Source of the DNA: Clostridia bacterium
GTDB taxonomy: Bacteria > Bacillota > Clostridia > Oscillospirales > Acutalibacteraceae
Direction: 5' to 3'
NCBI GenBank assembly: GCA_017624735.1
Contig: JAGAMK010000011.1
Span: 1 to 33,486, forward strand
Length of the DNA: 33,486 nucleotides
The notes below the pieces were generated by a model, which worked only from the letters and a program-made list of their open reading frames with translations, was not told the DNA's origin and searched no databases. Made by a program: the position numbers and the translations under genes. This document shows positions 178-15,608 of this stretch, in pieces (the stretch's first letter is position 1; each line of letters opens with the position of its first letter).

Positions 178-223
178 CAAAAAAAGATGACTGCCAAGGT
201 TTTGACAGCCATCTTTTTTTATG
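178..223 (-). terminator. Strong terminator hairpin, probably bidirectional
   Basis: The arms AAAAAAGATG and CATCTTTTTTT pair across an imperfect inner stem (CTG/CAG). On the minus strand this gives an A-rich hairpin ending in a run of seven T, which would end the transcript of the small ORF at 419-529. The plus strand also ends in a T run, so it may also stop transcription arriving from the left edge. Confidence 0.75.
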
Positions 224-285
224 AGAAAAATTATTATGAAAAACTAATTAAGCGACTTGCCGACTGCAAGTCTATATATTAAAAA

Positions 286-382
286 TTTCTGTGTAGCGGG
301 AAAAATAGGGATTGGTGTTATACTTTATGAAAAAGGAAAGGGAAAATTTGTTGGGGATTGGGAAAAACCCACCACACAGAAA
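286..382 (-). ncRNA. Long-range stem with C-rich loop in the 3' part of the small-ORF transcript (putative)
   Basis: Bases 382-368 and 300-286, read on the minus strand, can form a 15-bp stem. It has 13 Watson-Crick pairs and two G-U pairs. On the plus strand the same two positions become A-C mismatches, so the fold favours a minus-strand RNA. The 67-nt loop is pyrimidine-rich, with several CCC or CCCC clusters and two copies of CCAATCCC. C-rich unpaired loops are how several Firmicutes sRNAs contact Shine-Dalgarno sequences; applying that here is inference. A further perfect 7-bp hairpin (GACTTGC/GCAAGTC) lies at 254-272. Confidence 0.4.
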
Positions 383-418
383 TATTAAACAAACTAAAGG
401 AAACATTTTGTTCAGCTT

Positions 419-529
419 TTATGCTGCGAAGCCAAGTAACTGAACAACCTTGAGAAGCGACTTGATTGAGAACTCTTCGTGAATTAACTCAACAGCAAGT
501 TTCATCTGCTCGTTTTCGGCGTTATACAC
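419..529 (-). CDS. Putative 36-residue small protein (unannotated-type sORF)
   Basis: A GTG at 529-527 opens a 36-codon frame ending in TAA at 421-419. An exact AGGAGG lies at 542-537, seven bases upstream, as good a ribosome binding site as any in the window, and a -35/-10 pair (589-561) sits just before it. The predicted peptide begins (M)YNAENEQMK and ends VVQLLGFAA. It is acidic at the N-terminus and amphipathic in the second half, with no obvious membrane segment or signal peptide. The last codons fall in a hairpin (TTGTTCAG/CTGAACAA, 408-415 with 440-447). I do not recognise the family. It could be a true small protein, the coding part of a dual-function RNA, or a leader peptide, although no long gene follows before the terminator at 178-223. 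Confidence 0.6.
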   Translation of the reverse strand: MYNAENEQMKLAVELIHEEFSIKSLLKVVQLLGFAA

Positions 530-560
530 TTTACCGCCTCCTTTATTCTGTTGTGGCTAT

Positions 561-589
561 ATGATAACATTTAAAAAGCAAAAAGTCAA
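561..589 (-). promoter_or_regulatory. Sigma-A-type promoter for the small ORF
   Basis: On the minus strand a TTGACT -35 (589-584) and TATCAT -10 (566-561) are separated by 17 bp. This predicts a start near 554 and a 5' UTR of about 25 nt that contains the AGGAGG site. The transcript to the terminator near 178 would be about 375 nt. Confidence 0.7.
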
Positions 590-593
590 GTGT

Positions 594-629
594 TTTTGCA
601 CAATAAAATCATATAATATTTGTGCAAAA
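594..629. promoter_or_regulatory. Palindromic candidate operator upstream of the small-ORF promoter
   Basis: A perfect 10-bp inverted repeat, TTTTGCACAA (594-603) and TTGTGCAAAA (620-629), is separated by 16 bp and lies just upstream of the -35 at 584-589. A related half-site (TTTGTGCAAC) occurs at 782-791. The longer half-site GTTTTTGCAC (592-601) also occurs in the operator at 33012-33039. From 630 to 808 the DNA is very AT-rich and I see no gene in it. Confidence 0.5.
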
Positions 630-15473: not shown

Positions 15474-15493
15474 TTAATCACAAGATATAGTTG

Positions 15494-15565
15494 GTTTGCG
15501 TAACTGACGGATTTTGTGGATTACCACAAGGGAACGCGAACTGCATTAAGCCGACCGTCTGGGCA
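15494..15565 (+). promoter_or_regulatory. ZTP riboswitch (pfl motif)
   Basis: The sequence matches the pfl-motif layout. P1 is GCGT/ACGC (15498-15501 with 15534-15537). P2 is TTGTGG-ATTA-CCACAA (15514-15529). AAGGGAACGC is the conserved junction. The 3' domain is GCCGACCGTCTGGGCA (15550-15565), with a short GCC/GGC stem. GACGG (15506-15510) pairs with CCGTC (15555-15559) as the pseudoknot. This class binds ZTP/ZMP, which accumulates when 10-formyl-THF is short. The 3' strand of P3 overlaps the 5' arm of the terminator (from 15563), so ligand binding should favour read-through (an ON switch). The downstream genes make formate and 10-formyl-THF. Confidence 0.92.
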
Positions 15566-15608
15566 ATTCAACTTATGATTTTTGAGTTGAATTGCTCTTT
15601 TTGTTTTT
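15563..15608 (+). terminator. Riboswitch-controlled intrinsic terminator
   Basis: GCAATTCAACT (15563-15573) and AGTTGAATTGC (15585-15595) form a perfect 11-bp stem followed by TCTTTTTGTTTTT. Its first bases are the conserved GGGCA end of the ZTP aptamer, so the two structures exclude each other. Confidence 0.92.

Follow-up and report, generated by a model that had tools for sequence, protein, structure and literature searches.

A conserved small-protein gene of the Clostridia and the structured RNA in its 3' tail

On the minus strand of the window, by which we mean the whole 33,486-nucleotide stretch of DNA analysed here, an open reading frame (ORF) of only 36 codons stands between a promoter-like sequence and a terminator-like hairpin, with some 200 nt of non-coding sequence behind its stop codon. 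The question raised by this arrangement is whether the locus serves a small protein, an RNA or both. From the comparisons given below, we regard it as probable that the unit has a dual function, being a small-protein mRNA in which the 3' end has, within one clade, turned into a regulatory RNA.

All parts of the proposed unit lie on the minus strand. The -35 hexamer TTGACT (589-584), seen in the sequence as well as in a scan, and the -10 hexamer TATCAT (566-561), which is preceded by TG, are 17 bp apart and make up a predicted sigma-70-type promoter (561..589). A 5' UTR of about 24 nt (530..553, counted from a putative transcription start) contains CAACAGAATAAAGGA and the Shine-Dalgarno (SD) sequence AGGAGG (542-537), 7 nt before the GTG start at 529. 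The ORF (419..529) encodes 36 amino acids, predicted to form a small helical-hairpin protein, and ends with TAA (421-419); about 200 nt further on, a hairpin followed by a U run (179..220) was read as an intrinsic terminator. Promoter, SD, 36 sense codons, stop and terminator had all been proposed in the initial annotation and were found at the same places, though the terminator was read from the sequence by eye and is absent from the output of the consensus scan; its U run can base-pair with a stretch of A. The promoter hexamers by themselves are at chance level, with three sites in 100-760 versus 2.6 in shuffles, one on the minus strand (that of the ORF) and two on the plus strand, but TTGAC is kept in relatives. 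It is therefore because of conservation, and not because of the hexamers or the terminator scan, that the unit is credible above chance. The two plus-strand promoter-like sites (149-176 and 202-231) are near the terminator and face the RNA element, their number being that of chance. Beyond what had been described before, the unit includes a bipartite element at 627-596 and a covarying RNA structure at 383-254.

A tblastn search with the peptide matched its own genome and, at E ≤1, 19 of 59 genomes (own included), all of them from the window's genus. Profile A1 detected the ORF in 29 of the 39 genus genomes, at a single place in each, with one additional weak match in G017. These 29 ORFs have 34-42 codons and no internal stops were found in the matches, which are open frames by construction since they were found through the protein; a GGAG-containing SD is present before all 29 aligned starts. 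In 10 disjoint pairs, 77 synonymous and 51 nonsynonymous differences were counted over 238.5 and 868.5 sites, giving a pooled pN/pS of 0.18 (binomial P ~4e-21 versus neutral). Values of single pairs ranged from 0.05 to 0.78 (18 pairs printed), the highest being that of L006/L009, a pair with few differences. Conservation of the frame, an excess of synonymous over nonsynonymous change and a conserved SD, which the initial annotation had named among the checks to make, were thus all observed, and the sequence comparison indicates that the ORF is under selection at the protein level.

Within the order, three genomes out of the 295 searched matched profile A2, each from the window's genus, and the idea of a genus-only protein drawn from it was overturned by the richer profile A4 and by the promoter pattern described below. 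At the level of the taxonomic family, A4 had matches in 15 of 300 genomes, representing 10 of 135 genera including the window's own; divergent relatives of the protein are thus present in nine other genera, the 11 foreign genomes being matched at E 1e-6 to 0.008. Most genomes carry the small gene as a single copy. Two copies, each with its own bipartite promoter, were found in G597 (L158, L204) and G339 (L163, L141), and these pairs are possibly paralogs. At L199, a second similar short frame appears to stand directly behind the first, perhaps as the result of a tandem duplication.

The peptide had been said to match nothing known, and this holds for Pfam, NCBIfam, PHROGs, PADLOC and PDB; the protein occurs beyond a single genome, with relatives in other genera of the taxonomic family. 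The ORF itself has no Pfam match at the cut-off, and no convincing family was obtained for 26 A2 members in Pfam, NCBIfam and PHROGs or for 42 A6 members in Pfam, NCBIfam and PADLOC, PHROGs being searched with the A2 members only and PADLOC with the A6 members only. The lowest E-values were 0.00031 in Pfam, 0.009 in PADLOC, 0.013 in NCBIfam, 0.02 in PHROGs and 0.59 in PDB, where the profiles gave nothing below this value against the sequences. The Pfam value belongs to HTH_SUN2, a eukaryotic helix-turn-helix domain matched by 3 of the 42 members, and was taken as chance. AlphaFold2 predicts a two-helix hairpin (helices 2-17 and 22-35, of 16 and 14 residues) with a pTM of 0.45 and a mean pLDDT of 80.8 in the best of five models, the others reaching 63-77; a Foldseek search of PDB with this predicted fold gave a best E of 5.0. 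In the sequence, the N-terminal half is charged and no long hydrophobic membrane segment is present. Two short helices, predicted in our case, are also found in SinI, Sda and Spo0E, small helical-hairpin regulators that bind and inhibit regulators; the likeness is a lead only, and neither the sequence searches of Pfam, NCBIfam and PDB nor the fold search of PDB brought up any of the three. The single family member compared with phage and plasmid records had no match there. By the criteria of sequence comparison, the ORF represents a real small-protein family that no annotated family covers. Many annotations drop off sharply at around 50 residues, as reported in PMC5521070, which fits with such a small gene being missed.

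Upstream of the ORF, the layout TTGCACAA-N16-TTGTGCAA-N5-CTTGAC is exact in the window at 585-627, its bipartite inverted element TTGCACAA-N16-TTGTGCAA occupying 596..627 of the minus strand, 5 bp upstream of CTTGAC. This layout was written down after reading 11 foreign loci found through the protein. Allowing ≤3 mismatches, it is present in 25 of 40 protein-found units (16 of 29 in the genus and 9 of 11 foreign ones) versus 0 of 1118 control positions; four of the foreign units were entered under the loci found through the promoter. Of the 29 units in the genus, 10 have a degenerate version with ≥6 mismatches. Used alone on 398 family genomes, the layout gave 84 matches with ≤3 mismatches, distributed over 74 genomes and 33 of 135 genera, versus one match for a reversed-control pattern. 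Exact matches numbered 20, with ~0.0001 expected, and all 20, as well as all 18 one-mismatch matches, precede a short ORF of this size. We read 67 of the 84 matches (62 + 5 loci), the 17 unread ones all having three mismatches. A short ORF lies downstream in 47 of the 62 loci (46 by script, L198 by eye); L193 is doubtful, and of the 14 without an ORF, 12 are three-mismatch matches. A profile built from 36 protein-found units recognised 37 of 41 further promoter-found ORFs at E ≤0.01; when the 41 sequences were reversed it recognised none, and of the 459 other short ORFs present at these loci it picked up 4. L176, L177, L196 and L193 were left unconfirmed by this profile, the first three being among the exact-match loci. 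As judged from these genomes, the promoter element is widespread and partly decayed within the genus, and TTGCACAA-N16-TTGTGCAA is likely to be the binding site of a putative transcription factor. It replaced an earlier operator candidate, the 17-bp palindrome TTGTGCA-N3-TGCACAA (28 sites in the own genome versus 8 for the reversed control), which was dropped after 12 of 15 sites read were seen to be in coding DNA. Promoter-pattern matches with 2-3 mismatches were also found before genes that read like TIR-domain proteins (L174, L175) and before a gene that reads like a membrane pyrophosphatase (L194, L195); these genes are possibly further targets of the same putative regulator, or chance matches.

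Behind the stop codon, an alignment of 17 sequences yielded two helices, P1 with 14 pairs and P2 with 7. In the window, P1 (285..383) is formed by 383-368 with 300-285 and closes a 67-nt loop (367-301), and P2 is the hairpin GACTTGCAGTCGGCAAGTC (254..272), with AATATATA ahead of it. Terminator-like hairpins of different sequence come after P2 in the relatives. Changes on both sides were seen in 11 of the 21 pairs, including 5 of the 7 in P2; 96.0% of cells are paired, whereas shuffles reach 86.3% and sliding gives 37-55%; the covariation score of 0.394 compares with 0.215. All these values refer to a structure derived from the same alignment as tested and to covariation statistics that ignore relatedness. 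One of five covariation measures, further pair types, was not above shuffles (389/500). Single-sided changes in the stems correspond to G-U pairs on the minus strand, and TTTCTGTG/CACAGAAA is visibly swapped for ATTCTTGTG/CACAAGAAT, an exchange shown by both loop types. The loop of P1 is C/U-rich and nearly free of G, with 1 G in 70 bases counted for the window and 0 in 67 for L005. Comparative evidence of this kind identifies the 3' tail as a structured RNA in the window's clade.

A covariance model of this RNA, R1, gave one strong match (E ≤1.1e-20) in 17 of the 39 genus genomes; two more genus genomes were matched at E 0.48-0.49 only, and weaker second matches began at E 0.01. Among 200 family genomes, searched with stricter filters, the window's own genome was the sole match. 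R1 does not extend beyond part of one genus, and therefore a role of the RNA, if any, would be recent and local. With Rfam, no match at the locus reached the gathering score, the whole window giving only a ZTP riboswitch and tRNA elsewhere; at E ≤5, 12 sub-threshold matches were obtained at the locus, the lowest E being 0.04. Our literature search found no paper that could be tied to this unit. PMC8040213 describes candidate structured RNAs of human microbiomes by the thousand, and the 3' RNA of the unit may be among them.

The RNA is also present where the protein is missing. When GTDB was searched with a loop-derived pattern, each species being represented by one genome, 20 contigs matched, 16 of which are in Clostridia, Ruminococcaceae or Oscillospiraceae records; L051, L057, L065 and L066 were discarded as unrelated by their surroundings. 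At L055, L056, L062 and L064, the loci of genus genomes G013, G004, G020 and G030, the ORF is gone from a unit that still has its promoter, CACAACAGAA leader, P1, loop, P2 and terminator; no A4 protein match at E ≤5 was found in these four genomes. Over a 68-nt slice of the loop, the four ORF-less loci and their six closest ORF-bearing relatives share 94% identity (24 pairs), compared with 50% upstream of the promoter and 75% in the core promoter; the loop is as conserved in ORF-less genomes as it is among the ORF-bearing relatives. Selection on the RNA is thus independent of the ORF. Protein and R1 occur together in 13 of the 39 genus genomes, while 16 have only the protein, four only the RNA and six neither, after the ten genomes without an A1 protein match had been searched again with A4 and with 'neither' defined at the thresholds used. 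Incompleteness of metagenome-assembled genomes may explain part of these six, and the four ORF losses may represent one or two events only. The retention of promoter and RNA without ORF in four genomes favours the dual-function reading. The initial proposal, which left the choice between a small RNA of dual function and a small protein under regulation, is supported by the conserved frame and SD and by the RNA retained without ORF.

A third, long-range helix, P0, is a candidate only. Its 5' strand would be CAACAGAATAAAGGA in the 5' UTR and its 3' strand TTTCCTTTAGTTTGTTT (387..403, minus strand), so that in the window's clade the 5' UTR would pair with the stretch ahead of P1 and cover the SD. 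The predicted duplex has -17.2 kcal/mol (shuffle p 0.011) in the window, and p was ≤0.05 in 9 of 13 relatives with short windows; with a wider 3' window the signal was weak (group mean z -0.72, 2 of 13 below -1.5), and no trend was seen in other genera. Many units without R1 have a short GC hairpin followed by UUUAYAUA after the stop. This motif, chosen after the sequences were read, occurs in 21 of 50 foreign units versus 0.8 expected, and in 20 of the 44 units that carry the motif (2.1 expected) it comes right after a stem of 5 bp or more. To judge by these sequences, R1 looks like the family-wide short 3' hairpin with a large loop.

Possible RNA targets and the gene neighbourhood were also inspected. 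In the own genome, two long, near-perfect complements of the loop had a mismatch-free match at the locus of the unit only. The numbers of matches were 6 and 7 (own locus included) versus 3 and 2 for reversed controls, and the sole match at a ribosome-binding site, L107, has three mismatches and was rejected as a target, being at chance level. Flanking genes vary between clades, and the downstream neighbour is often convergent. In translations read by eye, this convergent gene looks like rnfB at 9 of the 17 loci of the window's clade (L050, L052, L054, L055, L061, L063, L064, L067 and L068), where it would mark the end of an rnf operon; at L054 it comes only after other genes. The other loci of the neighbourhood comparison have no member of this rnfB-like cluster, and the window's contig stops before the corresponding place. 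A redox role suggested by this neighbour was not adopted.

A single mechanism could accommodate these observations. The unit would be a vertically inherited single-gene transcription unit, controlled by a transcription factor that reads TTGCACAA-N16-TTGTGCAA beside the -35, and its transcript would direct the synthesis of a protein of some 35-55 residues with two helices, whose most likely mode of action is to bind another protein. The family-wide short hairpin of the 3' UTR would, in the window's clade, have turned into a 130-nt structured RNA, in which the P1 stem keeps the 67-nt, almost G-free C/U-rich loop open. Such an open loop would be able to base-pair with other mRNAs at purine-rich ribosome-binding sites, in which case targets would carry GGGGAUU or GGAAAGGG near their SD. 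Pairing of the 5' UTR with the 3' UTR in P0 may also repress translation of the ORF, and in four relatives the RNA alone would remain. A conserved folded RNA that outlasts the protein in some relatives from the gut suggests one transcript with two jobs. More tentatively, we see here an mRNA turning into a regulatory RNA, a step that is possible though somewhat doubtful: a gene with its own regulator, present in many genera of the family, would in one clade have gained a structured RNA with a nearly G-free loop within its 3' hairpin, and some species would have dropped the protein and kept the RNA and the promoter. If true, the order of protein first and RNA second would be the reverse of the usual discoveries of an ORF inside a regulatory RNA.

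The unit could instead be a small-protein mRNA and nothing else, its 3' structure acting in cis on stability, termination or translation control and having no targets in trans. The presence of hairpin and UUUAYAUA downstream of the ORF in units without R1, a P0 that could tie the 3' UTR to the SD and a target search that gave none in the own genome all agree with this, but the four genomes in which promoter, P1 loop, P2 and terminator are kept have no ORF left to regulate, and we consider a purely cis-acting structure unlikely, if worth keeping in mind. Those same four genomes, out of 17 bearing the RNA, are what might be expected of a pure regulatory RNA with an accidental ORF, as is a loop that within the clade is more conserved than the ORF. 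Such an accident is nevertheless barely credible given the pN/pS of 0.18, the conserved SD and the conservation of the protein in genomes and genera that lack R1.

A type I toxin-antitoxin system, with a small amphipathic toxin encoded by an mRNA inhibited by its own fold-back, would account for the short ORF and for a possible sequestration of the SD by the 3' UTR, and opposite-strand promoter-like sites (149-176, 202-231) are available, though three sites in total is the level of shuffles. We find this quite improbable, since the protein sequence lacks a long hydrophobic membrane segment, most genomes have one copy and only G597 and G339 two, no phage or plasmid match was found for the member tried, and the RNA is retained without the ORF. 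A short ORF with hairpins and a terminator behind it could also belong to a leader peptide or attenuator that controls the next gene; this is extremely improbable, as the downstream neighbour varies by clade, is often convergent and includes no conserved co-directional gene. Finally, the P1 arms might be the termini of a MITE-like mobile element beside an unrelated ORF, their inverted repeat ATTTCTGTGTGGTGGG/CCCGCTACACAGAAAT being flanked on both sides by ATTAAA; this is next to inconceivable for a sequence that has a single strong copy per genome, the same promoter ahead of it in the 17 loci read, and arms that covary as an RNA stem.

If the dual-function reading is right, the unit resembles SgrS/SgrT of enteric bacteria, in which a short ORF lies upstream of a conserved regulatory RNA in one transcript and is found in only a subset of the species bearing the RNA, SgrS keeping the pairing sequence and sgrT being present in a subset (PMC8672173). 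Here, however, it is the protein that is wider and apparently older, and the RNA that is narrower; no Rfam family, that of SgrS included, matched at the locus. In VcdRP of Vibrio cholerae, a 29-aa protein and a base-pairing sequence are likewise combined in one RNA, but according to PMC8672173 ORF and pairing sequence are conserved together in all tested species, whereas here they separate. SR1/SR1P of Bacillus subtilis is likewise a small RNA of a Gram-positive bacterium with a small protein encoded in it (PMC8501984); unlike it, our unit matches none of the Rfam or protein families searched. The loop also recalls the C-rich small RNAs RsaE/RoxS of Firmicutes, whose multiple C-rich regions can potentially pair with G-rich SD sequences, according to PMC4409812. 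RoxS has a validated target (PMC4409812), whereas the search of the own genome gave none here, and no Rfam match exists at this locus.

The small protein, seen by profile in ten genera and by its promoter pattern in 33 of 135 genera of the taxonomic family, has no model in the annotation libraries searched. With its mostly single-copy layout and fixed regulatory element, the unit lends itself to direct tests of the regulator, the protein partner and the RNA targets, and the natural deletions in the clade (RNA without protein, protein without RNA) allow both functions to be separated by species comparison. Two minor observations concern the rest of the window. A palindromic stretch at 60-116, just behind the terminator, has the arms AAATGCGTAGCATTT and GGCTCCCC...GGGGAGC on the minus strand and is present as a single copy within the window; palindromes of this kind are known as dispersed repeats in gut Clostridia. 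On the plus strand, a ZMP/ZTP riboswitch was detected at 15490-15571 with 64.9 bits, above its gathering score.
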